NCBI GenBank assembly: GCA_009699605.1
Contig: WLNW01000009.1
Coordinates: 1-43,129, forward strand
Reading direction: 5' to 3'
Origin: Actinomycetota bacterium
GTDB taxonomy: Bacteria > Actinomycetota > Acidimicrobiia > Acidimicrobiales > WLNW01
DNA length: 43,129 nt
Shown here: piece after piece, positions 4,524 to 35,725 of the stretch
Layout: each line of letters opens with the position of its first letter
Position numbering within the stretch: the stretch's first letter is position 1
Made by a program: the position numbers and the translations under genes
The notes under the pieces: model-generated
The model's input: only the letters and a program-made list of their open reading frames with translations
What the model was told of the DNA's origin: nothing
Database searches by the model: none

Positions 4524-4536
4524 GCCCCTGACCGTA
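4524..4536 (-). promoter_or_regulatory. Leaderless-type promoter -10 (TACGGT)
   Basis: On the minus strand TACGGT occupies 4536 to 4531 and is followed by 7 bases before the ATG at 4523. A start of transcription about 7 bases after a -10 would fall on the start codon. No Shine-Dalgarno sequence fits in this space, although the gap itself (CAGGGGC) is G-rich. Confidence 0.5.
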
Positions 4537-4570
4537 CAGGACGCGACGGCGTGCGGTTACGGCCTGAAAC

Positions 4571-6208
4571 TCACACGGTGCGCAGTACCCGGCCGCCCCG
4601 TTCGGCACGCGGTCGGCCGTTGACGAGGACGTGGTCGATCCCTACGACCTGATCGGCTACGAGCCGGTCGCCGCCTGCGGGAAGGTCGTAGACCCGACGG
4701 AGCGGGCTCGGTGTCAGGTGGGCGAGGTCCAGCACCACCAGATCGGCGTGTGCGCCCTCGGTGACCGTGCCGCGCTTGTGGAGCCCGAAGAACGCAGCCG
4801 GTTCGCCAGTGAGGCGATGCACGGCGCGTTCCAACGACATCACGCCGCGATCGCGAACCCAAAGCGCGAGGAACTCGACCGGCATCCCCGCGTCGCACAA
4901 CATGCCGACGTGCGCACCGGCATCCGAGATACCGAGGAGACAGCCGGGCTCGGACAGGAGCTCGGTGACACCCTCGGCGTTGTCGTTGCCGACGATCATG
5001 GTGCAGCGCGTCGTGAGATCGTCGCGCAGAGCGATCTCGACGAGCGCATCGAACGGATCGAGCTGCATCTCTGTGGCGAGTGACGCGAGGTCTCGGCCGA
5101 GCAATTCGGCCTCGGTGGTCTCGGCCACGAGGATCGACGACCAACGCACCTGATGAAACCTCTCGGACGCGAGCTCGTCGCGCGCTCGGGCGCGCCACGC
5201 GGTGTCGCGATAGAGCGATGGCCGGTCGGCGGTCGCCAGTGCCATCAGTTCCTTGAAGGCAGGAGCACCAATGAAGGGCGTGGGGTTCAGCAAGGAGAGC
5301 TGCACCGACAACGGGCGGCAGGTGACCTGCGGGTACACGCGAGCGCCGGCGGCCCACCCCTCACGATGTGTCCGGCGCTTCGCGGTCCAATGGGTTCGAG
5401 CGGCGTTGCCGTCTGGGTAGGTGACGAGGGCGGTCCAGGTGATGGCGCACCCCGTACGCGCTGCCACCTCGTAGAGCCATGCGAACTCGTCGTCGGGATT
5501 GGTCTCGACGACGCGATCGTGCGCGGCCGCGCAACGGACAAGTGCTTCCATCTCGTCGGTCGACGCGATCGCGCTCGGCACGCGACGCCCGCCCGCGCCT
5601 CGATGAAAGCGCGAGCGATCGGTCGAGATGCCGACCGCGCCGACGGACAGTGCCTCGGCGGCGAGCGCGTACATATCGGAGATCTCACGCGAGGTTGCCT
5701 CGCGCTCGTGTGCTTCGTCGCCCATGACCCACAGCCTCAGCGCAGTGTGGCCGACGTAGCTGGCGTAGTTCAGACCGACGCCCTTGTGCTCGAGCGTCTG
5801 CAAGTACTCGTCGAAGGTGGTGAACGACCACTCGATGCCTTCGTGCAGCGTTGCCGCGCTCATGTCCTCGACGCTCTCGAGCGTGTCGATGACGACGGAT
5901 CGGTGCTCGGGCTTGCACGGCGCGAGCGTGAATCCGCAGTTCCCGCCGATGACTGTCGTGACGCCCTGGTGCGACGATGGCGAGAGCGACGGATCCCACA
6001 GCACCTGGGCGTCGTAGTGGGTATGAATGTCAATGAAACCGGGCATGACGTGACGGCCCGACGCGTCGATGACCGACGCTCCGCTGAGCGTGCCCGCCGG
6101 AGCGACCGCCACGATGACGTCGTCGATCACGCCGACATCGGCCCGGTGCGCGCCCCGCACTCCGGTTCCGTCCACGACTATCCCGTTCGCGACCACGACA
6201 TCGAACAT
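4571..6208 (-). CDS. N-acyl-D-amino-acid deacylase-like amidohydrolase (paralogue 1)
   Basis: A 545-residue amidohydrolase of the D-aminoacylase / dihydroorotase branch. The metal-binding HxH is His62-Thr-His64 in DIHTHYDAQ, the bridging cysteine is Cys91 in GGNCGF, and the catalytic aspartate lies in GISDAGAHVG near residue 415. The two later metal histidines that D-aminoacylases carry are not obvious: the stretch where the first should be reads VVETNPDDEF and the second ITWTALVTYP, so the metal site or substrate may differ. The start is ATG 6208, which follows a run of six G at 12 bases; the open frame extends upstream without coding character. A paralogue with the same HxH and cysteine positions lies at 33043-34731. 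It is a lone gene, ending 48 bases from the next minus-strand gene. Confidence 0.85.
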   Translation of the reverse strand: MFDVVVANGIVVDGTGVRGAHRADVGVIDDVIVAVAPAGTLSGASVIDASGRHVMPGFIDIHTHYDAQVLWDPSLSPSSHQGVTTVIGGNCGFTLAPCKPEHRSVVIDTLESVEDMSAATLHEGIEWSFTTFDEYLQTLEHKGVGLNYASYVGHTALRLWVMGDEAHEREATSREISDMYALAAEALSVGAVGISTDRSRFHRGAGGRRVPSAIASTDEMEALVRCAAAHDRVVETNPDDEFAWLYEVAARTGCAITWTALVTYPDGNAARTHWTAKRRTHREGWAAGARVYPQVTCRPLSVQLSLLNPTPFIGAPAFKELMALATADRPSLYRDTAWRARARDELASERFHQVRWSSILVAETTEAELLGRDLASLATEMQLDPFDALVEIALRDDLTTRCTMIVGNDNAEGVTELLSEPGCLLGISDAGAHVGMLCDAGMPVEFLALWVRDRGVMSLERAVHRLTGEPAAFFGLHKRGTVTEGAHADLVVLDLAHLTPSPLRRVYDLPAGGDRLVADQVVGIDHVLVNGRPRAERGGRVLRTV

Positions 6209-6242
6209 CACCAGCTTCGTCCCCCCGCTCGGTGTCCTGAGT

Positions 6243-6263
6243 ATGTCGCGTATCGGACATGTC
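6243..6263 (-). promoter_or_regulatory. ATGTC/GACAT repeat upstream of the amidohydrolase
   Basis: ATGTC (6243-6247) and GACAT (6256-6260) form a 5-base inverted repeat with 8 bases between, and GACATGTC (6256-6263) is itself a palindrome. The cluster lies 35-55 bases upstream of the amidohydrolase start, where a promoter is expected. It could be an operator. No regulator gene is adjacent, and short repeats of this kind arise by chance. Confidence 0.25.
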
Positions 6264-6423
6264 GTCACCACGATCGGTCTCGCGGTGCGTTCGCCAAGCT
6301 CTCCTTCTCCGGCGGTGGCCGTACTCGGCGGGGACGTGATCGAGACCTGGATCGTGTGGTTCCGAGCTGAACCTGCGGCTGACGAGCTCAACAGCTGAAC
6401 CGGCGTGGTTCGCCCGTGGTCGA

Positions 6424-6435
6424 TAGCGTCTGCTC
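6424..6435 (+). promoter_or_regulatory. Leaderless-type promoter -10 (TAGCGT)
   Basis: TAGCGT at 6424-6429 is followed by 6 bases (CTGCTC) and the ATG of the VOC gene. There is no ribosome-binding sequence between them, so this supports a leaderless transcript and the chosen start. Confidence 0.55.
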
Positions 6436-6789
6436 ATGCGTCTTCATCATGTGAACATCGCGGTCCACCCTGATCTCCTCGAGGCCGAGATGGGCTTCCT
6501 CGCCGGCTGTCTCGGACTGTCGCGGCTCGATCCCGGCCCCGAGCTCGCCGAGCGCGCCCGTTGGTACGAGTTCCCGGATGGCTCGCAGGTGCACCTGAGC
6601 AGGACCACCGACCCGATCAGCACGCGCCCGGGGCACATCGCGCTCGACGTCGGTGATGCGCTCGACGAGATCGACCAGCGACTGGTCGCGGCAGGTCTTT
6701 CGCCACAACGCCAGCAGGGTCGCGAGCCGGCGGTCAGCCTCGTCAGCGATCCCGCAGGTCACCTGTGGGAGCTTCGCGCCCCCGACTGA
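6436..6789 (+). CDS. VOC-superfamily (glyoxalase/bleomycin resistance-like) protein
   Basis: A 117-residue single-domain vicinal-oxygen-chelate protein. The beta-alpha-beta-beta-beta repeat pattern is visible: MRLHHVNIAVHPDLL at the N terminus with a candidate metal histidine, GSQVHLSRT in the middle, GHIALDV opening the second half, and VSDPAGHLWEL near the end, the usual family finish. Such proteins bind a metal and a small substrate; functions include glyoxalase, dioxygenase and antibiotic-binding. Nothing in the sequence fixes which applies. It stands alone between a divergent amidohydrolase and the quinone-oxidoreductase-like gene 77 bases downstream. Confidence 0.85.
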   Translation: MRLHHVNIAVHPDLLEAEMGFLAGCLGLSRLDPGPELAERARWYEFPDGSQVHLSRTTDPISTRPGHIALDVGDALDEIDQRLVAAGLSPQRQQGREPAVSLVSDPAGHLWELRAPD

Positions 6790-6815
6790 CCGCGCGGCGA
6801 GGGTCGGGACAGGGC

Positions 6816-6865
6816 TACGTTTCCACTCGGCCACGCGCCGATCAGCGCGGTACACGGGGGTGGGC
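6816..6865 (+). promoter_or_regulatory. Promoter and G-rich leader of the MDR-sulfotransferase unit
   Basis: TACGTT at 6816-6821 is a -10 candidate 45 bases before the GTG at 6866. The leader ends in five G (6856-6860) and GGG (6862-6864) directly before the start, which would pair with the C-rich end of 16S rRNA. The same layout recurs at five other genes in this window. Confidence 0.4.
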
Positions 6866-7903
6866 GTGAGGGCAGTGCAGGTCGTTCAGAACGGTGCTCC
6901 GCTCGACGTGATCGAGGTGCGAGACATCGCAGTACCCGAGGTGGGTCCCGGCGAGGTGTTGGTCGCCGTGTCCGCGGCATCGGTGAACTTCGGCGACATC
7001 GCTCGTACGCGAGGTGGTGTGGCCACCGTGCAGATGCCGCCGCCCTTCACACTCGGGATGGACGTGTGCGGTGTCGTGGAAGCAGCCGGTGACGGCGCCG
7101 AGTCGTGGATCGGCCGTCGGGTCGTGGCGATGGCCAAGCAGTCCTTCGGCGGCATGGCCGAGTTTGCCGTGTGCGCGGCGACCGGCGTGTTCGACGCACC
7201 GCCAGAGCTCGACGATCTCGCGGCGGCGGGGTTCCTGCTGCCGTTCCACACGAGCTACGTGGGTCTTCACCGACGGGCGAGGCTGCAAGCGGGCGAGTCA
7301 CTGCTGGTCGTCGGCGCGGCCAGCAGCGTCGGGACCGCAGCGATGCAGCTGGGCGTGGTCGCCGGGGCAAAGGTGATCGCCCTCGCCGGTGGCGCGGCGA
7401 AGGGCAAGTACTGCACCGACCTCGGGGCGTCGACCTCGATCGACTACCTGGCCGAGGACCTCTTCGATCGGGTCATGGCCGAGACAGACAACCGCGGCGC
7501 AGACGTCGTGTTCGATCTCGTCGGCGGTGACCTCACCGAAACCATCTGGACGTGTGTCGCCCGCGAGGGCCGGTACCTGCCGGTCGGGTTCAACGGGGAG
7601 GCCGCCGGCGGGTTGTCGGGCAAGCCGCTGCGCAAGGTATCGATCGGGAACTTCTCGGTGATGGGCGTGATGGTCTCCTACAGCCCGGGAGCCGGGCCGA
7701 TGCGACGCTTCGGCATGAACCCGCTTCCGCCCGAGGTCGGTACGCAGGTTCACGCCGCGCTCCGTGAACTACTCGCGAGCGGTGCGATCACCCCGATGGT
7801 CGGGCGGTGCATCACCATGGACCAGGTCGGCGCCGCACTTGACGATCACGAGAATCGGCGCACGCAGGGCCGCACCGTGGTCGACATCGCGGGCTCTCGA
7901 TGA
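6866..7903 (+). CDS. NADPH:quinone oxidoreductase-like MDR protein
   Basis: A 345-residue medium-chain dehydrogenase/reductase of the zinc-free quinone oxidoreductase group. It has an N-terminal GroES-like domain (SAASVNFGDIARTRG, MPPPFTLGMDVCGVV) and a Rossmann domain with the loop VVGAASSVGTAAMQ. The structural zinc cysteine cluster of alcohol dehydrogenases is absent. It probably reduces an enone, quinone or enoyl-CoA with NADPH. GTG 6866 was chosen because the protein then begins VRAVQVVQNG, as MDR proteins usually do, and the G-rich leader ends there. Its stop overlaps the ATG of the sulfotransferase (ATGA), so the two form an operon. Confidence 0.88.
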   Translation: MRAVQVVQNGAPLDVIEVRDIAVPEVGPGEVLVAVSAASVNFGDIARTRGGVATVQMPPPFTLGMDVCGVVEAAGDGAESWIGRRVVAMAKQSFGGMAEFAVCAATGVFDAPPELDDLAAAGFLLPFHTSYVGLHRRARLQAGESLLVVGAASSVGTAAMQLGVVAGAKVIALAGGAAKGKYCTDLGASTSIDYLAEDLFDRVMAETDNRGADVVFDLVGGDLTETIWTCVAREGRYLPVGFNGEAAGGLSGKPLRKVSIGNFSVMGVMVSYSPGAGPMRRFGMNPLPPEVGTQVHAALRELLASGAITPMVGRCITMDQVGAALDDHENRRTQGRTVVDIAGSR

Positions 7904-9072
7904 GCGGCGAAAGAAGTGAGCTTCGCCCTGACGCCTTTATCGAGGCGGCAGTTGCGCAGACCGGCCTCGACGACTTCGGAAGCCCTAGTCATCGCGCGGG
8001 GCTCGACATCTACTGCGATTCGGTCGGGCGCGAGGCGCAGCTCAACGCGGTCGGCGCCAGCGCGATTCCCGGGGCGATCATCGCCGCGCTCAGCAATCGT
8101 CTCCGCATTGTCGACTGGGCGAAGCGCAACCCGGAGGTCACCGAGGAAGAGATCGTCGCTCCCTGGATCGTGGTCGGGATCTTTCGGGCCGGCACGACGT
8201 TCCTCAGCTACCTGCTCGAGAAGGATCCGGCCTCGCGACCGCTGCTGCGGTGGGAGGCGAACAACAGCGCGCCGCCCTCGACCGGCGACCATCGCAACGA
8301 CCCCCGGGTCGAGCCTCTTCGGGCGAGCTCCGCCATGCTCAATCAGCTCAATCCTCGGATCAAGGTCGTCCAGAGCGAGGAGCCCGATGGGCCTACCGAG
8401 TGTATTTCGGTGCTGAACCAGGACTTCAAGAGCCTCACGTGGGAAGCGCTCGCAAACGTGCCGGCTTACGGCCAGTGGCTGCGCACGGTCGACCACCGGT
8501 CGGCCTACGACTATCACCGGCTGGTGCTGCAGGTACTCCAGAGCGGCGGTGTCCGCGGCCGCTGGTCGCTCAAGAGCCCGCATCACGCTATGCGGCTCGA
8601 AGCGCTCCACGCGGTGTACCCCGATGCCCGCCTCGTGCTCATGCATCGCGACCCGACGGTCCTGTGTGCATCGGTGTGCAGCCTGATCACCACGCTCACG
8701 AGCACCTTCAGTGATGCTGACCACGCGCGCTACATCGCACAGCACTGGACCCAGATGCTCGAGGACTCTGTCGTCGGCATTGAATCCTTCCGGAGCGCGA
8801 ATCCCCGGGTGGCGATCCACGACGTGCAGTACGCCGACCTCGTGCTCGATCCGCTCGGAACGATGAGCAGGGTCTACAACGCCTTCGGAGACGAGCTCGA
8901 TGGCGCGGCGTTCGACGCGATGCGCGCCCATGTCGAATCGAACCGCAAGGGGCGCTTCGGCCAACATGGTTACGACCTCTCCGAGTTCGGGCTCGACGCC
9001 GGCGCGATCGCGGAGCGATTCGCCGGCTACGTCAACCGATACGACATCCCGATCGAGCACGCGCCGAGGTGA
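7900..9072 (+). CDS. Sulfotransferase family protein
   Basis: A 390-residue PAPS-dependent sulfotransferase of the bacterial Sulfotransfer_3-like type. The 5'-phosphosulfate loop is seen in VGIFRAGTTFLSYLL at about residues 90-104, and the 3'-phosphate-binding stretch in ARLVLMHRDPTVLCAS near residue 245. A conserved SLKSPHH motif lies between them. It would transfer sulfate to a hydroxyl or amine of a small molecule or lipid. Actinobacterial members often sit near lipid or sterol genes. It is cotranscribed with the MDR gene before it and converges on an operon that encodes a sulfatase, an unusual pairing discussed in the findings. The acceptor is unknown. Confidence 0.88.
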   Translation: MSGERSELRPDAFIEAAVAQTGLDDFGSPSHRAGLDIYCDSVGREAQLNAVGASAIPGAIIAALSNRLRIVDWAKRNPEVTEEEIVAPWIVVGIFRAGTTFLSYLLEKDPASRPLLRWEANNSAPPSTGDHRNDPRVEPLRASSAMLNQLNPRIKVVQSEEPDGPTECISVLNQDFKSLTWEALANVPAYGQWLRTVDHRSAYDYHRLVLQVLQSGGVRGRWSLKSPHHAMRLEALHAVYPDARLVLMHRDPTVLCASVCSLITTLTSTFSDADHARYIAQHWTQMLEDSVVGIESFRSANPRVAIHDVQYADLVLDPLGTMSRVYNAFGDELDGAAFDAMRAHVESNRKGRFGQHGYDLSEFGLDAGAIAERFAGYVNRYDIPIEHAPR

Positions 9073-9093
9073 ACCGACTTCTGATCGCGCGGG

Positions 9094-9543
9094 TCAGGCG
9101 ATCCGAAAAGCGGGGAAGGTCCAGTCGCCCCGGTCGACGAACACGACCTCGACCCGGGCATCGACGGCGATCGTGAGCGACGATGAGTCGACGATGCTGG
9201 TCATGAGCCGCGGACCCTCGTCGAGCGCGACGATGGCCGGGACGTAGGGCAGACTTGCGCCGAACGGTGCCAGATCATTCTCGCGCACGACGGAGTACGT
9301 GTAGAGCGAGCCGAGTCCGGTGACCTGATGCCAGGAGACCTGGTCGCTCCAACAATGTGGGCAGGCCGGCCGAGGCGGAAAGTGTGTGCGCCCGCACGTT
9401 GCGCACGCACGCACGAGCAGGCGGCGTTCGCGACACGCCTGCCACCACGGTTCGGTGAACTGGTCGGCGATCGGGGGTACCCACGGCACGGTGTCGACCG
9501 AGGGTGCGTCGAACGCCGTGTGGGGACCGGGTGGACGGTTCAT
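9094..9543 (-). CDS. DUF35 OB-fold protein with zinc ribbon (ChsH2/BbsA-like)
   Basis: A 149-residue protein with an N-terminal rubredoxin-like zinc ribbon (Cys47, Cys50, Cys61, Cys64 in CATCG and CPHC) followed by an OB fold starting at LGSLYTYSVV. Proteins of this type are partners of thiolase-fold enzymes, such as the DUF35 part of ChsH2 with the aldolase Ltp2 in steroid side-chain degradation, and BbsA with BbsB. Here the thiolase-fold gene ends one base upstream in the same operon, so a complex between the two products is likely. The zinc is expected to be structural. It is the last gene of the sulfatase operon. Confidence 0.9.
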   Translation of the reverse strand: MNRPPGPHTAFDAPSVDTVPWVPPIADQFTEPWWQACRERRLLVRACATCGRTHFPPRPACPHCWSDQVSWHQVTGLGSLYTYSVVRENDLAPFGASLPYVPAIVALDEGPRLMTSIVDSSSLTIAVDARVEVVFVDRGDWTFPAFRIA

Positions 9544-9544
9544 G

Positions 9545-10702
9545 TCAGTCGACCCCCAGGATCATGGTGGAGGCGGAGCTCATCCAGCCGCCGGTGCCGT
9601 TCACACAGGCCAGTCGGGCGTCGGCCACCTGGCGGGCCGCGGACTCGCCGCGCAGCTGGCGAACGGCCTCGACGATGAGGAACATGCCGCGCATGCCGGG
9701 GTGACAAGCCGACAGCCCGCCACCGTCGGTGTTGGTCGGCAGGCCGCCACCGATGCGCAGCGTTCCGCCTTCCACGAAGCGACCCGCCTCGCCGGGTGGG
9801 CAGAACCCGAGCCCTTCGAGCGTGAGCAGCACCGTGATCGTGAACGAGTCGTAGAGCTGGCAGACGTCAATGTCGGCCGGGGTGACGCCCGCTTGCGCGA
9901 ACGCGTCGCGTCCTGAGCGCACGCACGGCGACTCGGTGAAGTCGGGCCACTCGCTCATGGTCACGTGCGACACTGCCTCGCCGGTGCCGAGGATCCATAC
10001 GGGCGCCTTCGCGAGGTCGCGTGCGCGGTCCTCGGCTGCGAGCACCACCGCGCCGCCGCCGTCGGATCGGATGCAGCACTGCAACTTGGTGAGCGGGTCG
10101 GCGATTGGTCGCGAGCTGAGCACGTCGTCGATGGTGATGGGATCGCGGTAGTAGGCCTCGGGGTTGTCGGCCGCGTTGGCGCGCGCCGACACCGCGACCT
10201 CGGCGAGCTGTTCGATGGTGGTGCCGTACTGGGCCATGTGACGCTGCGCAGCCATCGCGTACTTGGAGACCAGCGTGTGCCCGAACGGAGCATCGAACTG
10301 TTGGTTGTCGCGGGCGCCGAAGCTGAGGTTCGACGTGCGCACGCCGCGTTTCAGGTCGGCACGGGTGGTGGACGCGTAGCTGAGCACGACGACGTCGACG
10401 AGGCCCAGCGCGATAGCGCTGGCCGCGTGCCGGCTCATGAACTCCCACGTGGACCCGCCCACGGTCGAGGACTCGACGTGCCGCAACCGTTGCGAAAGGC
10501 CCACGTACTCCGCGACTTCGATCGGTGACAGAACGCCGGTGCCCGTCGAGCACAGCCCGTCGATGTCGTCGCGCGTCAGGCCGGCGTCGGCGACGGCGCG
10601 CCGGATGGCCTGCTGATGGAGCTGGAGCTCGGTCTTGTCATCGACCCGGCCGAGGTCGGAGAGCCCGGCGCCTACCACGGCGACCCGTCTCGGTACCACC
10701 AC
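9545..10702 (-). CDS. Thiolase-fold protein, Ltp2-like (aldolase or lipid-transfer type)
   Basis: A 385-residue protein of the SCP-x/Ltp thiolase superfamily. The place of the thiolase nucleophile reads VESSTVGGSTW, with serine instead of cysteine, so ordinary thiolysis is unlikely. The stretch VCQLYDSFTITVLL has the tyrosine that Ltp2-type retro-aldolases use, and GLPTNTDGGGLSACHPG matches the C-terminal family loop. With its DUF35 partner directly downstream it resembles the Ltp2-ChsH2 pair that removes a propionyl group from steroid side chains by retro-aldol cleavage. The start is a GTG sharing its G with the TAG stop of the sulfatase. Alternative: a non-catalytic lipid-transfer protein. 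Confidence 0.85.
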   Translation of the reverse strand: MVVPRRVAVVGAGLSDLGRVDDKTELQLHQQAIRRAVADAGLTRDDIDGLCSTGTGVLSPIEVAEYVGLSQRLRHVESSTVGGSTWEFMSRHAASAIALGLVDVVVLSYASTTRADLKRGVRTSNLSFGARDNQQFDAPFGHTLVSKYAMAAQRHMAQYGTTIEQLAEVAVSARANAADNPEAYYRDPITIDDVLSSRPIADPLTKLQCCIRSDGGGAVVLAAEDRARDLAKAPVWILGTGEAVSHVTMSEWPDFTESPCVRSGRDAFAQAGVTPADIDVCQLYDSFTITVLLTLEGLGFCPPGEAGRFVEGGTLRIGGGLPTNTDGGGLSACHPGMRGMFLIVEAVRQLRGESAARQVADARLACVNGTGGWMSSASTMILGVD

Positions 10703-12966: not shown

Positions 12967-13021
12967 GATCCCCCCGGATGTCGCCCGCCGACCTTCGTGA
13001 CGGTTCGGCGCCGCCATCGTA
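12967..13021 (-). promoter_or_regulatory. Promoter and G-tract leader of the sulfatase operon
   Basis: On the minus strand TACGAT (13021 to 13016) lies 50 bases before the GTG start, and six consecutive G (12975 to 12970) lie 3 bases before it. This is the same layout seen upstream of 6866, 24471, 26032 and 37243. Confidence 0.4.
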
Positions 13022-13084
13022 GGAGCCATCGATCGCTGTGGGTCACGGCGACGAGCTGTTGTGATCGATGACCTCAGGTTCTGC

Positions 13085-13097
13085 TAGTCCTTTCCCC
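13085..13097 (+). promoter_or_regulatory. Possible leaderless-type -10 (TAGTCC)
   Basis: TAGTCC at 13085-13090 stands 7 bases before ATG 13098. The last base is C instead of T, so this is a weak match, but the spacing is the same as at the better sites. Confidence 0.3.
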
Positions 13098-15068: not shown

Positions 15069-15098
15069 CCGACGAAGGATTTCAATGCGGCGGTTCGC

Positions 15099-15110
15099 TA
15101 CCGTCCCGGC
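15099..15110 (+). promoter_or_regulatory. Leaderless-type promoter -10 (TACCGT)
   Basis: TACCGT at 15099-15104, 6 bases (CCCGGC) before ATG 15111. It lies between two same-strand genes, so the kinase-like gene probably has its own transcript. Confidence 0.5.
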
Positions 15111-18008: not shown

Positions 18009-18059
18009 GGGTGGACTCCGATCGGCGACGCTCGGAGGCCGCCGTGTGGGGTCAGACTA

Positions 18060-18298: not shown

Positions 18299-18310
18299 TA
18301 GTGTTCCACC
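18299..18310 (+). promoter_or_regulatory. Leaderless-type promoter -10 (TAGTGT)
   Basis: TAGTGT at 18299-18304 is 6 bases (TCCACC) upstream of the ATG of the 42-residue basic protein. The match to the pattern seen at larger genes supports that this small frame is expressed. Confidence 0.5.
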
Positions 18311-18439
18311 ATGGCTGCAAAAGAACGTCAGACGACCGAGGCGAAGAAGCCCGGGCGTACCCTCAAAGAGAAGCGTGCGGCGAAAGACGTCAAACAGGCC
18401 GCGCAGAAGCAGGCTCGCAAGGGTTGGGATTCCAAGTAG
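18311..18439 (+). CDS. Small basic Lys/Ala-rich protein (42 aa)
   Basis: A 42-residue, strongly basic protein: 11 Lys and 4 Arg against few acidic residues, with the core LKEKRAAKDVKQAAQKQARK and an end GWDSK. It should form one amphipathic helix and may bind nucleic acid or ribosomes; that is inference. The start has a TAGTGT hexamer 6 bases upstream and no ribosome-binding site. It lies 137 bases upstream of the cold-shock gene on the same strand, so the two might respond together. No family is recognised. Confidence 0.6.
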   Translation: MAAKERQTTEAKKPGRTLKEKRAAKDVKQAAQKQARKGWDSK

Positions 18440-18576: not shown

Positions 18577-18780
18577 ATGGCAATTACAGGAACGGTGAAG
18601 TTCTTCAACTCCGAGAAGGGCTACGGCTTCATCTCTCGGGAACAGGGTGATGACGTTTTCGTTCATTACTCCAACATCCAGGGTGATGGCTACAAGTCGC
18701 TTGACGAGGGCCAACGCGTCGAGTTCGACGTCGCTCCGGGTCGCAAGGGCGAAGAGGCACAGAACGTTCGCGCGATCTGA
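18577..18780 (+). CDS. csp: Cold-shock protein, CspA family
   Basis: A 67-residue single cold-shock domain that binds single-stranded RNA and DNA. Both RNA-binding motifs are intact: RNP1 as KGYGFIS and RNP2 as DVFVHYS. The first residues [16 protein letters not shown] are the standard family start, and the end [15 protein letters not shown] is typical. It likely acts as an RNA chaperone. A clear hairpin terminator follows 22 bases after the stop, so this is probably a monocistronic message with its own long leader. Confidence 0.97.
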
Positions 18781-19949: not shown

Positions 19950-20016
19950 CGTGTCGCACGCTCCAGGTTGGACCGACGTTACTGCGACGTGGGCGGCGCG
20001 AGGTAGGGTCCGCGCC
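19950..20016. promoter_or_regulatory. Compact divergent promoter region
   Basis: The 67 bases between the SDR (minus) and LLM (plus) starts hold TAACGT for the SDR (19981 to 19976) and TAGGGT for the LLM gene (20004-20009, 7 bases before GTG 20017). The two -10 elements face away from each other with 22 bases between, so their -35 regions must overlap the opposite promoter. Confidence 0.5.
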
Positions 20017-23155: not shown

Positions 23156-23168
23156 TAGAGTTAGGGGC
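23156..23168 (+). promoter_or_regulatory. Leaderless-type promoter -10 (TAGAGT)
   Basis: TAGAGT at 23156-23161 followed by 7 bases (TAGGGGC) and the GTG of the 49-residue zinc-ribbon gene. It lies in the 80-base gap to the divergent molybdenum-enzyme gene. Confidence 0.5.
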
Positions 23169-23318
23169 GTGAGACAGCGTGGGAACTGCCCGGAGTGCCA
23201 TCTTCGCGATGCAACGCACACGGTCGCGGAGCCCGATCGGCCGCCGGCCGACCTGTGCGATCACTGTGCGTCGGCCTACGACCCACGGTTCGTGATCCGC
23301 TTCGCGCCTCGCCCCTGA
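23169..23318 (+). CDS. Small zinc-ribbon microprotein (49 aa)
   Basis: A 49-residue protein with two CxxC knuckles, CPEC (Cys7, Cys10) and CDHC (Cys30, Cys33), 19 residues apart. The rest is short and charged, ending AYDPRFVIRFAPRP. The layout is a zinc ribbon similar in plan, though not in sequence, to the 59-residue protein at 17829-18008. A clean TAGAGT lies 7 bases before the GTG, which supports a real gene. It stands between the molybdenum enzyme (divergent) and an MDR gene 123 bases downstream. Family and function are not recognised. Confidence 0.65.
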   Translation: MRQRGNCPECHLRDATHTVAEPDRPPADLCDHCASAYDPRFVIRFAPRP

Positions 23319-23427: not shown

Positions 23428-23441
23428 TAGGGTCCGGCCTC
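23428..23441 (+). promoter_or_regulatory. Leaderless-type promoter -10 (TAGGGT)
   Basis: TAGGGT at 23428-23433, 8 bases before GTG 23442. The sequence TAGGGTCCG is shared with the LLM promoter at 20004. Confidence 0.5.
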
Positions 23442-26079: not shown

Positions 26080-26113
26080 GTCGGCGTCCTCCGGGTGCTC
26101 GCGGCCGGTGAAG

Positions 26114-26126
26114 TAACGTGCGCCTT
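26114..26126 (+). promoter_or_regulatory. Leaderless-type promoter -10 (TAACGT)
   Basis: TAACGT at 26114-26119 is 7 bases before GTG 26127. This spacing favours GTG 26127 over GTG 26118, which would begin inside the hexamer. Confidence 0.5.
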
Positions 26127-27290: not shown

Positions 27291-27342
27291 GGCCACGCCG
27301 CACGCGCCGCCGGATCCACGGCGCGTACCGCGGGCTGCGTCG

Positions 27343-27355
27343 TAGTGTCCAGACC
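27343..27355 (+). promoter_or_regulatory. Leaderless-type promoter -10 (TAGTGT)
   Basis: TAGTGT at 27343-27348, 7 bases before GTG 27356. It identifies the start of the LLM gene within a much longer open frame that runs antisense-like through the transporter gene. Confidence 0.5.
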
Positions 27356-28345: not shown

Positions 28346-28453
28346 GCACGGTGTTGGAGCGGTGCCCGATGGTCGATGAAGAGGGAAGAGCCATGGCCGA
28401 CGCGTAAGGCGCCGACCGCCCCGCAACGCCGACGGCACGAGCCTGCACCACCT

Positions 28454-28600
28454 CTATCGGAATATCGGCAAAGCGGTCGCGCTCCGGTGGCGTGCAGCGT
28501 CGCGGCGAACCAGGTCGATCAGCCGACGCGACGCGACCGTGACAAGCCACGAGCGTGCCGAGAACCTGTGGGGCAAGCGTCACGCGTCGGTCGCTGCTTC
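28454..28600 (-). pseudogene. Remnant of an ECF sigma factor (ECF42/DUF6596-like)
   Basis: Two fragments of the N-terminal part of an ECF sigma factor of the large ECF42-type are recognisable on the minus strand. In one frame (from about 28600) the residues are RRVTLAPQVLGTLV, as in the family's LAPQVLGxLV. From about 28550 a different frame gives WLVTVASRRLIDLVRRDAAR, matching the WLxTVASRRLIDxLR stretch before region 4, then a stop at 28454. About 35 residues between them (region 2) are missing and the frame has shifted. The rest of the 356-base gap 28346-28701 gives no further gene; it contains only short frames. I take this as a decayed gene, not a working one. Confidence 0.6.
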
Positions 28601-28689
28601 GGCATCGAGTCGGAGCCGGCGGACCGGGTTCGACATTCGGTGCGGGAGGTTCTCCGAGCGGGAGATCGGCGCCGGTCGTCCGCTTCCGA

Positions 28690-28701
28690 TAGACATCGGG
28701 C
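28690..28701 (+). promoter_or_regulatory. Possible leaderless-type -10 (TAGACA)
   Basis: TAGACA at 28690-28695 lies 6 bases before ATG 28702. It ends in A, so the match is imperfect. Confidence 0.3.
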
Positions 28702-29487
28702 ATGCGGACGATCGTGGTGACCGGGTCAGCGTCGGGTATGGGTGCGGCGACCAGAGCGCGGCTCGTCGCCGCGGGCGAGCGGGTGATCGGCGTCGACATT
28801 CGCGACGCGGACATCGTCGCCGACCTCGGCACCGCCGAGGGGCGTGCACTGGCCATTGCCTCGGTCGGTGAGCTGAGCGGCGGGGTCATCGATGGGCTCG
28901 TGACCTGGGCCGGTCTGCCCGGCCTCACTGACCGCCCGGGTGGCCTGCTGGTTTCGGTGAACTACTTCGGCACGATCTCGATGCTCGAAGGGTTACGACC
29001 GATGCTCGCCAAGGGCGATCGCCCGGCTGCGGTGGCCATCAGCTCCAACTCCACCACGTGCCAGCCGGGGGTGCCCATGGACGTGGTCGAACGCTGCCTG
29101 GCCGGCGACGAGGACAGCGCCTGCGCTGCGGCCGACATCGCGTCGTCGCTCGCCACCTATCCCGCGACCAAGACCGCGATCGCCTGGTGGGTTCGCCGGC
29201 ACGCGCCGACCGGCGAATGGGCGGGTAAAGGCATCACCTTGAACGCGGTCGCGCCGGGCGCGGTCGAGACGCCGTTACTGCAGGCCAGTCGCCAGGATCC
29301 GGTCATCGGCGCGTTGGTCGACGCCTTCCCGGTGCCCGTCGGCCGCAAGGCCTCGGCCGACGAACTCGCGGCGTTCGTGCAGTTCCTGCTGGGCCCCGAT
29401 GCCCGGTTCTTCTGTGGCTCGGTGGTGTTCGTCGATGGTGGCACCGACGCCCAGCTCCGCGCCGACGCCTACCCTTTGCCGATGTAG
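28702..29487 (+). CDS. SDR oxidoreductase (3-alpha-hydroxysteroid dehydrogenase / CAD-like)
   Basis: A 261-residue short-chain dehydrogenase. The cofactor loop is TGSASGMG, the NNAG position reads WAGLPG, the serine region is AISSNSTTCQPG and the Tyr-Lys pair is in YPATKTAIAW. The segment GVPMDVVERCLAGDEDSA, an insertion before the active site, is typical of the coniferyl-alcohol / 3-alpha-hydroxysteroid dehydrogenase branch. The end GSVVFVDGGTDAQLRADAYP also fits. It probably oxidises a secondary alcohol with NAD(P). It is convergent with dapD, ending 33 bases from it. Confidence 0.85.
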   Translation: MRTIVVTGSASGMGAATRARLVAAGERVIGVDIRDADIVADLGTAEGRALAIASVGELSGGVIDGLVTWAGLPGLTDRPGGLLVSVNYFGTISMLEGLRPMLAKGDRPAAVAISSNSTTCQPGVPMDVVERCLAGDEDSACAAADIASSLATYPATKTAIAWWVRRHAPTGEWAGKGITLNAVAPGAVETPLLQASRQDPVIGALVDAFPVPVGRKASADELAAFVQFLLGPDARFFCGSVVFVDGGTDAQLRADAYPLPM

Positions 29488-29520
29488 GGCCGTCTCCGAT
29501 GTAGCGCGGCTGGGCCGAAT

Positions 29521-30657
29521 TTAGTGGTGAAGGGCGGCGTTGAGGCCGGTCCATCCGCCCGAACCCTCGCGCGCCAACGCCTCGATGGCGCCGCTGGTCG
29601 AGTTGCGGCGGAACACGAGGTCGGAACGGCCCGACAGGTCGCGGGCCTTGGCGGTGGTGCCATCGGGGAGGCGGACGATCGAGCCGGCGGTTAGGTAAAG
29701 CCCGGCTTCGACGGTGCAGCGATCACCGAGTGAGATGCCGATGCCGGCGTTCGCTCCGATGAGGCAACCGGCGCCGACGCTGATGATCTCCTTGCCACCG
29801 CCCGACAACGTGCCCATGATGGATGCGCCCCCGCCGAGGTCGGAATCGTTGCCCACGACGACGCCGGCCGAGATGCGGCCTTCGACCATCGCCGCACCGA
29901 GCGTTCCAGCGTTGAAGTTGCAGAAGCCTTCGTGCATCACCACGGTGCCTTCGGCGAGATGAGCACCGAGGCGCACGCGGCTCGCGTCGGCGATGCGCAC
30001 GCCGCTCGGGATGACGTAGTCGACCATGCGCGGGAACTTGTCGACCGCGTGCACGACAGGCCGCATGCCGGTGAGCTCGAGTTCGACGGCGCGTGCGGCG
30101 TAGTCGTCGGGTTCGAACGGGCCGTGACTCGTCCACACGTTGGTGACGAGCTTCGCGAAGAGACCGTCGAGGCCCACGCCGTGCGGCAGGACCTGGCGCT
30201 GGGACAGTAGGTGCAGTCGGAAGAACGCATCGCTGGTGTCGACGATCGGGTCGGTAAGGTCCTCGAGGAAGACGGCCACCACATGGCGTGTGCCGCCCAG
30301 GCGCGGCGCGGTGCGCAGCTTCTGGATCAGCTGCCAGCCCCACAGGTTGGGATGGGGTAAGTCGGTGCACGCCTCGGCCGGCGTGAGCATCGTGATGGCC
30401 CGGGCAAAGGTGGCCTCGTCGAGCCGGATGGAGGTAGTACCCGAGCGGTAGCCCGTGACGTCGGCCAGCACCGCCGCAGGGAGGAAGTTGCCGCCCGCGT
30501 TGGCCCGCGGGAAGTAGGTGTCGAGCGTGGCGCCCGACGGCCCGACCGTGGCGAGACCGAGCCCGAAGGCGGCTGGTCGCTTGTACGACTCGAGTGTGCG
30601 CTCGATCGTGTCACGGGCGGTGTTGAGCTCTTCCTGGGTTCGCCATGCTTCAGCCAT
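29521..30657 (-). CDS. dapD: 2,3,4,5-tetrahydropyridine-2,6-dicarboxylate N-succinyltransferase
   Basis: A 378-residue DapD of the actinobacterial type. It catalyses succinyl-CoA-dependent acylation of tetrahydrodipicolinate in lysine and meso-diaminopimelate synthesis. The C-terminal left-handed beta-helix shows hexapeptide repeats (ASRVRLGAHLAEGTVVMHEG, FCNFNAGTLGAAMVEGRISA, GVVVGNDSDLGGGASIMGTL); the N-terminal half includes AFGLGLATVG and DLPHPNLWGWQLIQKL. It is the only clear amino-acid biosynthesis gene in the window and stands alone with no dapE beside it. A TAACAT hexamer 8 bases upstream suggests a leaderless message. Confidence 0.95.
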   Translation of the reverse strand: MAEAWRTQEELNTARDTIERTLESYKRPAAFGLGLATVGPSGATLDTYFPRANAGGNFLPAAVLADVTGYRSGTTSIRLDEATFARAITMLTPAEACTDLPHPNLWGWQLIQKLRTAPRLGGTRHVVAVFLEDLTDPIVDTSDAFFRLHLLSQRQVLPHGVGLDGLFAKLVTNVWTSHGPFEPDDYAARAVELELTGMRPVVHAVDKFPRMVDYVIPSGVRIADASRVRLGAHLAEGTVVMHEGFCNFNAGTLGAAMVEGRISAGVVVGNDSDLGGGASIMGTLSGGGKEIISVGAGCLIGANAGIGISLGDRCTVEAGLYLTAGSIVRLPDGTTAKARDLSGRSDLVFRRNSTSGAIEALAREGSGGWTGLNAALHH

Positions 30658-30671
30658 GGGTGCGCATGTTA
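30658..30671 (-). promoter_or_regulatory. Leaderless-type promoter -10 (TAACAT) of dapD
   Basis: On the minus strand TAACAT (30671 to 30666) is followed by 8 bases (GCGCACCC) and the ATG at 30657. Confidence 0.5.
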
Positions 30672-30718
30672 GGACGAGCGCCGTCAGAACGATTCATCAA
30701 TCGCCGATGGGTCCGCTG

Positions 30719-31642
30719 TCACACGTGCCGGGTCGGTCGACGCGCCGACATGGCCGGGTTTCGGCCATGAATGCGCGCCGTGACGCGATCCGCGGCCTCG
30801 AGCACGCTTGTCGCATGCTCGGAAATGCGACTCGGATCGATCTGATGTGGCTGTGCGTGCACGCCGATGGCGGCGACCGGGTGACCGTCGTGCCCGTAGA
30901 CGGCCGCGCTGATCTGGGACACTTCCGCAGACTCTGAGCCGGTCCAGGGTCCGAAGGAACGCTCCTCGCGATGCAGGCGTGCGACCAGTTCGTCGCGCCG
31001 GCGCCGCGCCGCGTGCGACGCGGGCCGGTCCGCTAACTCGCTCACGGCCTGCTCGAAGCGCCGCCGGGCCTCCACGTCGAGGACCACGACGTAGCCCCGG
31101 TCCTCGGCGAAGCGGATGCTCTCGCGGTAGGCGCGGCGCTCGTCCGGTTCGAACTTCACGCGGGCTCGATCGAGCCACGCGTCGATCGTTCCGTCCGGTG
31201 CATGGAGAAGGTGCGCGATGCCGAACGGCGGGACGAACGGGATCGTCTGGCCCAGGCGGACCGTTTGCGAGAGCACGCCGGCGAGGCGTGCATGCGCGAC
31301 CACGACGATCTCGTCGCCGGACACGACCGATGCCAAGGCTTCGAGTCCGACAGCGGCGACCAGCGTGTCGAGCTCGGCCCTGAGCTCGTCGACCACCTGC
31401 AGGCCGGCGAGCGCGGCTTCGCCGAGTGGGATCATCCCGGCGCCCAGCGCGTAGCGCAGGTCGGATCGACGTTGCACCCAGCCACGGGGCTCGAGCGACA
31501 GCAGGATGGATTGGCAGGTGGTGCGGTTGAGGCCGGTGCCACGGGCGATGTCGCTGACGCTGAGCTCGACGGTCGGATGCGCGGCGAGGTACGAGATCAC
31601 ATCGACCACACGGTGGGCCGGAGCTGATGGTGCGAGGGCCAT
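30719..31642 (-). CDS. IclR-family transcriptional regulator
   Basis: A 307-residue IclR-type regulator. The N-terminal winged helix-turn-helix reads RVVDVISYLAAHPTVELSVS, DIARGTGLNRTTCQSILLSL, EPRGWVQR, and the effector-binding domain follows from about residue 90 with IVVVAHARLAGVL and QISAAVYGHDGHPVAAIGVH near the end. Such proteins sense a small metabolite, often an aromatic or aliphatic acid. ATG 31642 was chosen: the open frame continues far upstream but antisense to the P450. It is divergent from the P450 operon, with 111 bases between, and a 14-base palindrome there is a likely operator. Confidence 0.9.
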   Translation of the reverse strand: MALAPSAPAHRVVDVISYLAAHPTVELSVSDIARGTGLNRTTCQSILLSLEPRGWVQRRSDLRYALGAGMIPLGEAALAGLQVVDELRAELDTLVAAVGLEALASVVSGDEIVVVAHARLAGVLSQTVRLGQTIPFVPPFGIAHLLHAPDGTIDAWLDRARVKFEPDERRAYRESIRFAEDRGYVVVLDVEARRRFEQAVSELADRPASHAARRRRDELVARLHREERSFGPWTGSESAEVSQISAAVYGHDGHPVAAIGVHAQPHQIDPSRISEHATSVLEAADRVTARIHGRNPAMSARRPTRHV

Positions 31643-31657
31643 ACGCGCGTTAGAGTA
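31643..31657 (-). promoter_or_regulatory. Likely -10 of the IclR gene (TACTCT)
   Basis: On the minus strand TACTCT (31657 to 31652) lies 9 bases before ATG 31642. The gap is slightly longer than at the other leaderless-type sites. Confidence 0.35.
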
Positions 31658-31668
31658 CTGGCGTGTGA

Positions 31669-31682
31669 GTTGATATTTCAAC
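31669..31682. promoter_or_regulatory. Candidate IclR operator palindrome
   Basis: GTTGATATTTCAAC is a 14-base palindrome with six of seven base pairs matching, AT-rich in a GC-rich setting. It lies between the divergent IclR gene and the P450 operon, just upstream of the IclR -10, which is where autoregulating IclR proteins bind. Confidence 0.5.
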
Positions 31683-31753
31683 AGGTACGCCGTGGTCGTG
31701 AAGATGATGCTCGAGAAGCTGACGGTCGGGGGACTGATGGGGTACGACAACTG

Positions 31754-33046
31754 ATGGGAAACGACACCAGCGACAGTGCGGCGGTTTTCGACGCGAAGAA
31801 CCTGCTGGGCGGCATCGGGCTCGTGCGGGACCCACACGCTCGGCTGCGCGAGCTGCGCGAGGAATGCCCGGTGCACGCCGGTTCGGTGTCGGGCATCTTC
31901 GGTGTCGTCGGTTCCGACAACTACCTGATCCCCGACGATCAGCAGGTTTCGGTCTTCGCCTACGACGACGTCGATCGTGGCTTCCGGGACGCCGCCACGC
32001 TCTCGAACTCGTATTATGTGCCGTCCCTCCGCGACGTCATCGGCCGCACCATCCTCGAGATGGATCCACCTGAGCACCAGCGCTACCGCGCACTCCTGCA
32101 GGGGGCGTTCACCAAGGCCGAGATGGTCCGTTGGGAGGCCGACTTCGTGCGCGGCATCGTGAACCGGCAGATCGACCAACTCGCACCGCTCGGTAAGGGT
32201 GATCTCGCGTCCGACTTCGCGTTCCACTATCCGATTTCGGTGATCGCGGTCGCGGTCGGGCTGCCCGTCGACCACATTCCATCGTTCTACGAGCAGTCGG
32301 CCAAGCTCACGAACGTGGCCATCGCTGCACCCGAGCGCATGGCCGCGCGCGACGCGCTCTCGGCCGTGATCGAGGCCACGGTCGCCGAGCGCCGCGCGGA
32401 GCCCAAGGACGATCTCGTCAGCATCCTCGTCCACGCCGAGGTGGTCATGCCCGACGGGGCGCGCGAACGGCTCACCGACGAAGAGATCGTCGCGTTCGTG
32501 CGCCTGCTGGTGCCCGCTGGGGCCCAGACCACCTACCGCACGCTCACCAACTTGTTGTTCGCGCTCCTGACCCACCCCGACCAACTCGAACTTCTCCGCG
32601 CCGATCGCTCGTTGATCCCTCGCGCGATCGAAGAGGGTCTGCGGTGGGAAGCACCGTTGCTGTCGTTCGGTCGGATCGCCACGCACGACACGGAGATCGC
32701 CGGTCACGCGGTCGCGGCCGGCGCCACGGTGAACCTGTGCGTGCACTCGGCCAACCGCGATCCGCAACGCTGGCCCGAGCCTGACCGTTTCGACATCACC
32801 CGCCCAGTGCGTGGTCACGTGTCGTTCGGGCAAGGCAACCACATCTGTCTCGGCATCCACTTCGCTCGCATGGAGCTTCGCGTCGCGCTCGAGGTCATCC
32901 TCGACCGCCTCCCGGGCCTCCGGCTGGCGCCCGACGCCGACGATGTCCACATCGGGGGGCTCTCGACCCGCTCGGCACTTCGGCTGCCATGCGAGTGGGA
33001 CCTACCGCAGGCCACTGTCCCGAATGCAAGAGGGAGCAACCAATGA
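31754..33046 (+). CDS. Cytochrome P450
   Basis: A 430-residue bacterial P450. The heme-binding loop is FGQGNHICLG with Cys365 as the axial ligand, and the ExxR pair is Glu294 and Arg297 in EEGLRW. The I-helix stretch reads AGAQTT at 255-260; the usual acidic residue before Thr-Thr (AGxDTT or AGxETT) is glutamine 258 here, so proton delivery may be altered. The enzyme probably hydroxylates a hydrophobic substrate with a separate ferredoxin, not in this window. ATG 31754 was chosen; the open frame starts 28 codons earlier but inside the palindrome region. Its stop overlaps the next ATG (ATGA). Confidence 0.93.
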   Translation: MGNDTSDSAAVFDAKNLLGGIGLVRDPHARLRELREECPVHAGSVSGIFGVVGSDNYLIPDDQQVSVFAYDDVDRGFRDAATLSNSYYVPSLRDVIGRTILEMDPPEHQRYRALLQGAFTKAEMVRWEADFVRGIVNRQIDQLAPLGKGDLASDFAFHYPISVIAVAVGLPVDHIPSFYEQSAKLTNVAIAAPERMAARDALSAVIEATVAERRAEPKDDLVSILVHAEVVMPDGARERLTDEEIVAFVRLLVPAGAQTTYRTLTNLLFALLTHPDQLELLRADRSLIPRAIEEGLRWEAPLLSFGRIATHDTEIAGHAVAAGATVNLCVHSANRDPQRWPEPDRFDITRPVRGHVSFGQGNHICLGIHFARMELRVALEVILDRLPGLRLAPDADDVHIGGLSTRSALRLPCEWDLPQATVPNARGSNQ

Positions 33047-34731
33047 CCGCAGATCTCATCATCCGAGGTGCGCGCATCATCGACGGCACCGGGCTCCCGG
33101 GGTTCACCGGCGATGTCGAAGTTCGCGACGGACGCATCGTGCGGGTGGGGCGCGTTCGCGGCACCGCGGCGGCCAAGGTGATCGACGCCGACGGGCTCGA
33201 CCTCACGCCGGGTTTCGTCGACGTGCACACCCACTACGACGCGCAGCTGCACTTCGAGTCGTCGGCATCACCGTCGTCTTGGCACGGGGTCACCACGGTG
33301 CTTACGGGGAACTGCGGATTCACGCTCGCTCCCTCCAAGCCCGAGGACCTCGACTGGCTCGTGCTCATGCTGGCCAAGGTCGAGGGGATGTCCGCCGACG
33401 CGCTGCGCGCCGGGGTGAACTTCGGCGGCGGAACGCTCGGCGACTACCTGCGCCTGCTCGACGGGCGCATCGGGGTCAACATGGCGTCGTACGTGGGCCA
33501 CGCCGCAGTCCGCCGTTGGGTGATGGGTGCCGAGGCCAGCGAGCGCGAGGCCACCGCCGACGAGATCGTCGCGATGCAGGCGCTGGTCGACGAAGCGATG
33601 CGCGAGGGTGCACTCGGCCTGTCGACCTCCCAACTCGACGTGCACGCAGATCACGAGGGTCGTCCGGTTCCACCGAACCTCGCGTCGGCGGCGGAGATCG
33701 TCGCGCTGTCGTCGGTGCTCGCGGGCTACGACGAAGGCGCGCTAGAGCACCTGTGTCGCTCGTTCGCGTTGGGCTATGACGCGAGTGATCGCCAGTTGCT
33801 GGCCGACATGGCTCGCGCTTCGGGCGGAAAGTCGTTGCACGCGAACCTTCTGCTGCGGTTCACCAACGACCCCGATTCCTGGCGCACCTGCCTCGACGTA
33901 CTCGAGGGCTACGCACGCGAGGGTTTACGTGTCTACCCAATGGCATCGGCCAACCCGAAGGGCCTTCATCTCGCGCTGAGCGACACGATCCTGCTCGACG
34001 AGATGACGTCGTTCCGCGAGACGCTCGCGTTGCCGATGCCCGAGCGCATGCGCGCCCTTGCCGACCCGGGTGTCCGCGCCCGCCTGCGCCGCGACTTCGA
34101 CGCCGGCAATCGGCAGCTGGCGTTCGCTTGGAAGGACTTGCTCGTCGCGTCGGTGCGCGATTCGAAGAATGCTGCCCTCGTCGGACGCAGCGTCGGCGAC
34201 CTCGCCCGCGAGCGGGGCCAGGACGGTCTCGATACGTTCCTCGACGTCGCCTCCTCCGAGGACCTCGAAACGGTGTTCGTGATCGATCGCCCGGTCAGCC
34301 AGGCCGATCGTGACGTCATCCGGTTCCTGCTGGCGCACCCATTGACCATGCCCGGCTCCAGCGATGGCGGCGCACACGTGAACACGTTCTGCGGTGCGGA
34401 CTACACCACGCGCGTGCTCACCGAGTACGTCGACGACGAGTTCACCTTCGAGCACGCGGTGCGCCGCTTGTCGGCCGTTCCGGCGGCCACGATCGGATTG
34501 TGGGACCGTGGCGAGATCCGTCCGGGAGCGAAGGCCGATCTGGTGTTGCTCGATCGATCGAAGCTCGCCGTCGGGCCGGCCCGTCTGCTGCGCGACTTCC
34601 CGACCGGCGCGGCACGCATGGTGTGGGAGCAACGTGGTTATGTTGCCACGATCGTGAACGGCGAGGTCATCATCGACGACGGCAAGCCCACGGGTGCCAC
34701 GCCCGGCGAGGTGCTGCGGTTCAACCAGTAG
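33043..34731 (+). CDS. N-acyl-D-amino-acid deacylase-like amidohydrolase (paralogue 2)
   Basis: A 562-residue amidohydrolase related to D-aminoacylase. The metal site HxH is His62 and His64 in DVHTHYDAQ, the cysteine is Cys91 in TGNCGF, and the aspartate is in SSDGGAHVNTF near residue 450. Candidates for the other metal histidines are in LEHLCRS and SLHANLLLR, which its paralogue at 4571-6208 does not show. The enzyme probably cleaves an amide or cyclic imide; the name D-aminoacylase should not be taken as proven. ATG 33043 lies in the stop of the P450 and has GAGGGAGC just upstream. It is the second gene of the P450 operon. Confidence 0.87.
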   Translation: MTADLIIRGARIIDGTGLPGFTGDVEVRDGRIVRVGRVRGTAAAKVIDADGLDLTPGFVDVHTHYDAQLHFESSASPSSWHGVTTVLTGNCGFTLAPSKPEDLDWLVLMLAKVEGMSADALRAGVNFGGGTLGDYLRLLDGRIGVNMASYVGHAAVRRWVMGAEASEREATADEIVAMQALVDEAMREGALGLSTSQLDVHADHEGRPVPPNLASAAEIVALSSVLAGYDEGALEHLCRSFALGYDASDRQLLADMARASGGKSLHANLLLRFTNDPDSWRTCLDVLEGYAREGLRVYPMASANPKGLHLALSDTILLDEMTSFRETLALPMPERMRALADPGVRARLRRDFDAGNRQLAFAWKDLLVASVRDSKNAALVGRSVGDLARERGQDGLDTFLDVASSEDLETVFVIDRPVSQADRDVIRFLLAHPLTMPGSSDGGAHVNTFCGADYTTRVLTEYVDDEFTFEHAVRRLSAVPAATIGLWDRGEIRPGAKADLVLLDRSKLAVGPARLLRDFPTGAARMVWEQRGYVATIVNGEVIIDDGKPTGATPGEVLRFNQ

Positions 34732-34749
34732 GTTGCCACCGCCGGTGAC

Positions 34750-34762
34750 TATGGTCCCCGGT
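34750..34762 (+). promoter_or_regulatory. Leaderless-type promoter -10 (TATGGT)
   Basis: TATGGT at 34750-34755, 7 bases (CCCCGGT) before ATG 34763. It may give the crotonase gene its own transcript inside the operon and decides its start. Confidence 0.45.
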
Positions 34763-35560
34763 ATGGGTCTCGACGTCGACATGGACGGCGCGGTGCAACG
34801 CATCCGCCTCAACTTTCCCGAATCACGCAACGCGATCGACAACGACACGGCGGTCGCGCTCACCGAACTGTTCCGTGCCGCCAACCTGGATCGATCGATT
34901 CGCGCGATTCTGGTTACTGGCGTGGATCGAGACTTCTGCACGGGTGGCGGGGCCAACGTGCCGAAGCCCAGGGGAGATGCTGCTGATGCGCTCGCACCGT
35001 CGCTGATGGACTACCGGTTCGGCACCCATCTGTTCCAGAACCTGTTCGCCGCCTATTGGGAGATCGAAAAGCCCGTCGTCAGCGCAGTCAACGGCACGGT
35101 TGCGGGGGCCGGGTGGATGCTTGCGCTCCTCGCCGATCTCGTCGTGGCCGCCGAAGACGCACGATGGACGCACGTGTTCACCAAGCGAGGCATGATCCCG
35201 CACGCCGGAGACCCGTTCTTCCTGCCGCGCGTGCTGCCGTTCCACTTTTTGAACGAGATCGCGATGCTCGGTGACACTGTGGTGTCCCAGGACCTGCATC
35301 GCGTCGGCGCCGTCAACCGCCTGGTGCCGGCGGCCGAGGTCGAGGCCACGGCACGGACGCTCGCGGTGCGCCTGGCCGAGGGACCCACACGATCCCTCGG
35401 CCAGGCCAAGCGGCTCTACCGGCGTTCGCTCGAATGCGACATGCGCACCGCCTTCGGCGAGGAGACCGCTGCCGCCACGATGCTGACTACCACCCACGAT
35501 CGCACCGAGGGCGTGCAGTCCTTTCTGGAACGCCGCCCTGCGGTCTTCACCGGCGACTGA
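34763..35560 (+). CDS. Enoyl-CoA hydratase/isomerase family protein
   Basis: A 265-residue crotonase-fold protein. The CoA-binding oxyanion loops are RDFCTGGGANV and AVNGTVAGAGWMLALLADLV. The two glutamates of true hydratases are not evident: the first position reads AGAGWMLAL and the second THVFTKRGMIPHAGD, so classic hydration is doubtful. Isomerase, hydrolase or ring-cleaving chemistry within the crotonase family remains possible. ATG 34763 was chosen from the -10 spacing and the start MGLDVDMDGAVQRIRLNFPE; the frame reads 23 codons further upstream. It ends 7 bases before a long perfect hairpin. Confidence 0.87.
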   Translation: MGLDVDMDGAVQRIRLNFPESRNAIDNDTAVALTELFRAANLDRSIRAILVTGVDRDFCTGGGANVPKPRGDAADALAPSLMDYRFGTHLFQNLFAAYWEIEKPVVSAVNGTVAGAGWMLALLADLVVAAEDARWTHVFTKRGMIPHAGDPFFLPRVLPFHFLNEIAMLGDTVVSQDLHRVGAVNRLVPAAEVEATARTLAVRLAEGPTRSLGQAKRLYRRSLECDMRTAFGEETAAATMLTTTHDRTEGVQSFLERRPAVFTGD

Positions 35561-35567
35561 AAATGCG

Positions 35568-35615
35568 AACTGGTAGTTCTCGAGGGTGCCCTGGCACCCT
35601 CGAGAACTACCAGTT
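35568..35615. repeat. Perfect 23-bp inverted repeat (hairpin)
   Basis: Arms 35568-35590 and 35593-35615 are perfectly complementary over 23 bases, with only CT between them. The arms contain CTCGAG, and each arm has an inner GAACT/AGTTC pair, so alternative folds exist. No T-run follows (GCGAGTTGGG). It lies 7 bases after the crotonase stop and probably stops transcription of the P450 operon as a hairpin without a T-tract; it could also be a small mobile or repetitive unit. It is by far the longest perfect inverted repeat I found here. Confidence 0.85.
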
Positions 35616-35703
35616 GCGAGTTGGGCGAACCCGTTGGGGCGCTCCGGCGAAAGTCGATGCGCGGCAAACGCCAGAAGTCGACGGTTGCGCATGCCCGCCA
35701 TCG

Positions 35704-35721
35704 CTAATGTGGTACCATTAG
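35704..35721. promoter_or_regulatory. Operator-like dyad CTAATG-N6-CATTAG
   Basis: CTAATG (35704-35709) and CATTAG (35716-35721) are a perfect 6-base inverted repeat around TGGTAC. It covers the -10 (TACCAT, 35713-35718) of the amidohydrolase gene, so a bound protein would block transcription. Size and symmetry suit a TetR-, MarR- or GntR-type dimer. Confidence 0.5.
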
Positions 35722-35725
35722 AACC
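35713..35725 (+). promoter_or_regulatory. Leaderless-type promoter -10 (TACCAT)
   Basis: TACCAT at 35713-35718 lies 7 bases (TAGAACC) before ATG 35726. It overlaps the CTAATG-N6-CATTAG dyad. Confidence 0.5.

Follow-up and report, generated by a model that had tools for sequence, protein, structure and literature searches.

TANNNT hexamers before start codons point to leaderless transcription in an Acidimicrobiia genome

Introduction

In Actinobacteria, a TANNNT hexamer about 12 bp before the start codon was described in 2011 at more than 20% of genes and read as the −10 box of leaderless transcripts (Zheng et al. 2011, PMC3160421). Mapped 5' ends have since confirmed that reading in Mycobacterium tuberculosis (Cortes et al. 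2013, PMC3898074) and in Streptomyces. In M. tuberculosis, the hexamer lies 7 to 12 bp upstream of mapped transcription start sites and is accompanied by no conserved −35 element (PMC3898074). Among bacterial species, 21.6% are predicted by GeneMarkS-2 to use leaderless transcription (PMC9581028). Because the TANNNT leaderless signal is established for Actinobacteria (PMC3160421, PMC3898074), the mechanism that we discuss is not new. The main text of Zheng et al. (PMC3160421) does not mention Acidimicrobiia, the class of the metagenomic assembly (MAG) analyzed here, and the part of the literature returned by our search for leaderless together with Acidimicrobi- held no start-site map for that class.

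The present genome resembles these described systems closely. It shares its consensus with the TA-led genes of Actinobacteria and Deinococcus-Thermus, at a similar share of genes (~22% here; PMC3160421). With M. tuberculosis it shares the TANNNT hexamer, the lack of a conserved −35 element, and the use of both ATG and GTG, in a signal found there at more than a quarter of genes; the 5' ends, however, were mapped in that organism, whereas here we infer them (PMC3898074). Streptomyces avermitilis, in which 22.2% of mRNAs are leaderless, likewise has a TANNNT −10 box but differs in having a detectable −35 element, BTGACN, that is absent from the present set (PMC8780764).

Materials and Methods

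The genome comprises 3.45 Mb in 277 contigs at about 67 to 68% GC. The window, by which we mean the whole stretch of 43,129 nucleotides that was analyzed, is contig 267, and the genome-wide tests covered 650,829 bases (19% of the genome), the window included. Genes and their starts were called blind by a codon-usage model that takes no account of the sequence before the start codon. By the strict count, a gene was taken as a transcription-unit head if it had an opposite-strand neighbor or a gap of at least 60 bases before it. Conservation tests drew on relatives from the order and the class, with no second genome from the family among them.

We relied on tests anchored at gene starts in place of a plain genome-wide count of TANNNT followed by ATG, which barely exceeded the count for the reversed pattern (504 versus 474). 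We set that control aside for two reasons: a reversed hexamer has AT in place of the TA step, and the two steps may differ in frequency; moreover, the majority of ATG triplets do not start genes.

Results and Discussion

The earlier note had listed twelve TANNNT hexamers 6 to 8 bases before ATG or GTG codons in the window, and all twelve are exact matches that read as listed. At a spacer of 6 bases lie TAGCGT (6424..6429, +) before ATG 6436 of a glyoxalase-like gene, TACCGT (15099..15104, +) before ATG 15111 of an APH-family phosphotransferase, and TAGTGT (18299..18304, +) before ATG 18311 of a conserved 42-residue microprotein. At a spacer of 7 lie TACGGT (4531..4536, −) before ATG 4523(−) of a CMD-family protein, TAGGGT (20004..20009, +) before GTG 20017 of a luciferase-like monooxygenase, TAGAGT (23156..23161, +) before GTG 23169 of a 49-codon open reading frame (ORF) whose coding is unsupported, TAACGT (26114..26119, +) before GTG 26127 of a chromate transporter, TAGTGT (27343..27348, +) before GTG 27356 of a second luciferase-like monooxygenase, TATGGT (34750..34755, +) before ATG 34763 of an enoyl-CoA hydratase, and TACCAT (35713..35718, +) before ATG 35726 of an amidohydrolase 2 protein. 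The spacer is 8 for TAGGGT (23428..23433, +) before GTG 23442 of a zinc-binding dehydrogenase and for TAACAT (30666..30671, −) before ATG 30657(−) of a DapD-like succinyltransferase. Ten of the products belong to ordinary Pfam families.

Several of these starts are fixed independently of the hexamer. For seven of the twelve sites (4523, 6436, 15111, 18311, 23442, 30657, and 35726) no further candidate start lies between the in-frame stop upstream and the listed codon, and the ORF at 23169 likewise lacks an alternative, though it is not a supported gene. We favor 6436 over the blind call at 6451 because the glyoxalase Pfam match begins at residue 3. The hexamer before 34763 contains an alternative ATG, at 34751, so that 34763 must be the start if the hexamer is a promoter.

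The claim that the dozen sites mark heads of transcription units needs some adjustment: nine stand at strict heads, of which the window holds 22, and the other three lie behind same-strand gaps of 31 to 47 bases. Eleven stand before genes, while the one at 23169 has no demonstrable gene. Among three further sites that had been ranked as weaker, 13098 (TAGTCC) and 28702 (TAGACA) do lack the final T, but 31642(−) has an exact match, TACTCT (31652..31657, −), at a spacer of 9, the edge of the genome's range of 5 to 9. Its gene (30719-31642, −) encodes an IclR/PcaR-type regulator of 307 amino acids that a simple caller missed, preferring an antisense ORF (31202-31627, +) that has no family match.

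Elsewhere in the window, the regions 9094-10678 and 37237-40474 hold sets of genes for ChsH2-like OB-fold proteins, thiolases, and a lipid-transfer protein that matches PRK07937 above its curated cut-off. These sets look like genes for steroid or acyl-CoA side-chain degradation.

We consider it very probable that TANNNT here marks the −10 boxes of leaderless promoters and that transcription starts on the start codon, as the earlier note had proposed. Several features support the proposal: Shine-Dalgarno sequences are depleted, TTG starts are lacking, pyrimidines are in excess at −1, the signal is confined to unit heads, and diverged relatives keep it. TANNNT would serve as the −10 box of a promoter for the primary sigma factor, and a spacing of 6 to 8 bases (range, 5 to 9) would place the transcription start on, or 1 to 2 bases from, the A or G of the ATG or GTG. 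Start sites so placed would yield mRNAs with neither a 5' leader nor a Shine-Dalgarno sequence, on which the ribosome would initiate at the 5'-terminal start codon. By analogy with other actinobacteria, we predict both where the 5' ends lie and that ribosomes initiate on a 5'-terminal codon.

The spacing of the signal is sharp. Among 236 heads with an opposite-strand neighbor, spacers of 5, 6, 7, 8, and 9 bases gave 2, 22, 13, 15, and 6 matches, respectively, and each position from 0 to 4 and from 10 to 19 gave none or one. The modal spacer is 6, and every match precedes a start codon beginning with A or G. TTG starts are missing from TANNNT genes (0/93, versus 19/369), and a pyrimidine occupies −1 in 64 of 82 of them, versus 210/369 (P = 4e-4), an excess that is significant pooled and at spacer 8 but not at 6 or 7 alone. 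RNA polymerase favors start sites at which a purine at +1 follows a pyrimidine. Given this preference, both the pyrimidine at −1 and the absence of TTG would be needed if transcription began with the codon's first base.

The strongest competing account accepts the hexamers as true −10 boxes but shifts transcription to a few bases upstream of the codon or inside it, leaving a leader of 1 to 5 bases or a start past the annotated codon. Spacers do range from 5 to 9, and the distance from −10 box to start site differs by a few bases among mapped promoters of actinobacteria (PMC3898074); the modal spacer of 6, the purine at +1 after a pyrimidine, and the lack of TTG nevertheless favor a start on the codon, and we judge the shifted start unlikely. 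It is in any case a variant of the leaderless reading, as leaderless in the M. tuberculosis study spans ±5 bases (PMC3898074).

TANNNT is concentrated at transcription-unit heads and precedes only 8 of 172 operon-internal starts at spacers of 6 to 8. Shine-Dalgarno sequences occur in 5% of TANNNT genes versus 30% of other non-operon genes (P = 1.4e-7). This mutual exclusion, together with the fixed distance from the start codon, is also what one would expect of an initiation element, other than Shine-Dalgarno, acting in the translation of leadered mRNAs. We regard such an element as very improbable, in that the hexamer is nearly missing before operon-internal genes, whose need for translation signals is equal, and its sequence is that of the known actinobacterial −10 box. 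Upstream of the matches, we found neither an extended −10 nor any enrichment of a TTGAC-like −35 element at −26 to −21 from the hexamer. One independent sign of a promoter therefore falls away, although the mapped promoters of M. tuberculosis likewise show no conserved one. Because Streptomyces has the element while M. tuberculosis does not conserve it, a −35 is no strict hallmark of actinobacterial primary-sigma promoters.

The −10 box reading also rests on enrichment far above chance. In the window, 11 of 38 genes carry the signal, and P for 11 or more is ~1.5e-10 at a chance rate of 2%; the 1 to 2% that the earlier note had estimated is of the right order, dinucleotide shuffling giving 0.95% of heads. 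Genome-wide enrichment at the same spacing, which had been named as a test of the idea, is strongly positive in the 19% of the genome sampled. At heads with blind-called starts, TANNNT occurs at spacers of 6 to 8 in 67 of 369 cases, compared with 3.5 ± 1.9 (maximum, 10) in 200 dinucleotide shuffles, and errors of the blind caller make this figure a lower bound; at heads with an unambiguous start, it occurs in 31 of 108. Control codons carry it at far lower rates (0.12% of in-frame internal ATG/GTG, 0.04% out of frame, and 0.08% antisense), and twelve other hexamers, obtained by rearranging or altering the pattern and equally free to choose a nearby start, reach 7 to 37 head matches versus 109 for TANNNT. 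The starts had originally been picked by eye, perhaps favoring those that match, but an artefact of chance or composition is ruled out by the blind starts, the shuffles, the internal codons, and the rival hexamers. Corrected for control spacers, the excess amounts to ~30% at heads, 23% for genes that follow a same-strand gap of 20 to 59 bases, and ~6% for operon-internal genes, from which we estimate by arithmetic that ~22% of genes bear the leaderless signal.

The box is also conserved across genera. For dapD (30657, −), TANNNT stands at a spacer of 6 to 8 in 16 of the 21 relatives with a readable N-terminus (~50 to 58% protein identity) and at spacers of 0 to 5 or 9 to 15 in none of the 21, though their N-termini differ in length; we attach no P value to this count because the relatives are not mutually independent. 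The amidohydrolase at 35726 counts against the reading, keeping the signal in just 3 of 25 homologues, though these are probably paralogues for the most part; the count indicates that the leaderless trait is gene specific. Four more near-full-length paralogues of this amidohydrolase, 45 to 48% identical, are present in the same genome (contigs C90, C256, C60, and C215).

The promoter pattern had been said to expose two microprotein genes, and one of them holds. The gene at 18311..18439 (+) encodes 42 amino acids and is conserved in Acidimicrobiia, its relatives (named records mostly from Acidimicrobiia/Acidimicrobiales) sharing start, approximate length, and sequence at 53 to 74% identity. Differences between species fall mainly on third codon positions (166, versus 74 and 65 at the other two), the flanks being near background in most, and TANNNT stands at a spacer of 6 or 7 in 10 of 14 distinct loci or genomes. 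The product matches no Pfam or NCBIfam family. This is a real, conserved, and uncatalogued gene, and a leaderless one by prediction. The neighboring cold-shock protein gene (18577-18780, +), whose synteny with the microprotein gene is not kept in relatives, has a purine-rich stretch (GAAAAGAAGAGAGAAGAAGAGT) directly before its ATG and no TANNNT; it is probably a leadered contrast to the leaderless microprotein beside it. We do not accept the other candidate, 23169-23318, as a gene: its codon score is at the median of sham ORFs, and its product has no relative among the 395 class genomes searched.

Both dapD and the 42-residue basic protein keep the box 6 to 8 bases from the start across genera and families. 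We raise, tentatively, the possibility that leaderless initiation in Acidimicrobiia is gene specific and stably inherited over very long times, and that selection may favor the lack of a leader as such, for instance to aid translation during stress.

Conclusions

The observation proves correct, has strong support, and was largely to be expected; what it adds is an Acidimicrobiia lineage to those in which this signal is described. In this genome, transcription of roughly one gene in five appears to begin at the first base of that gene's start codon. The practical gain is in annotation: in a genome like this one, sequence by itself suffices to place about one start in five, and short genes come into view; here, the promoter pattern helped to reveal one real, uncatalogued protein of 42 residues.
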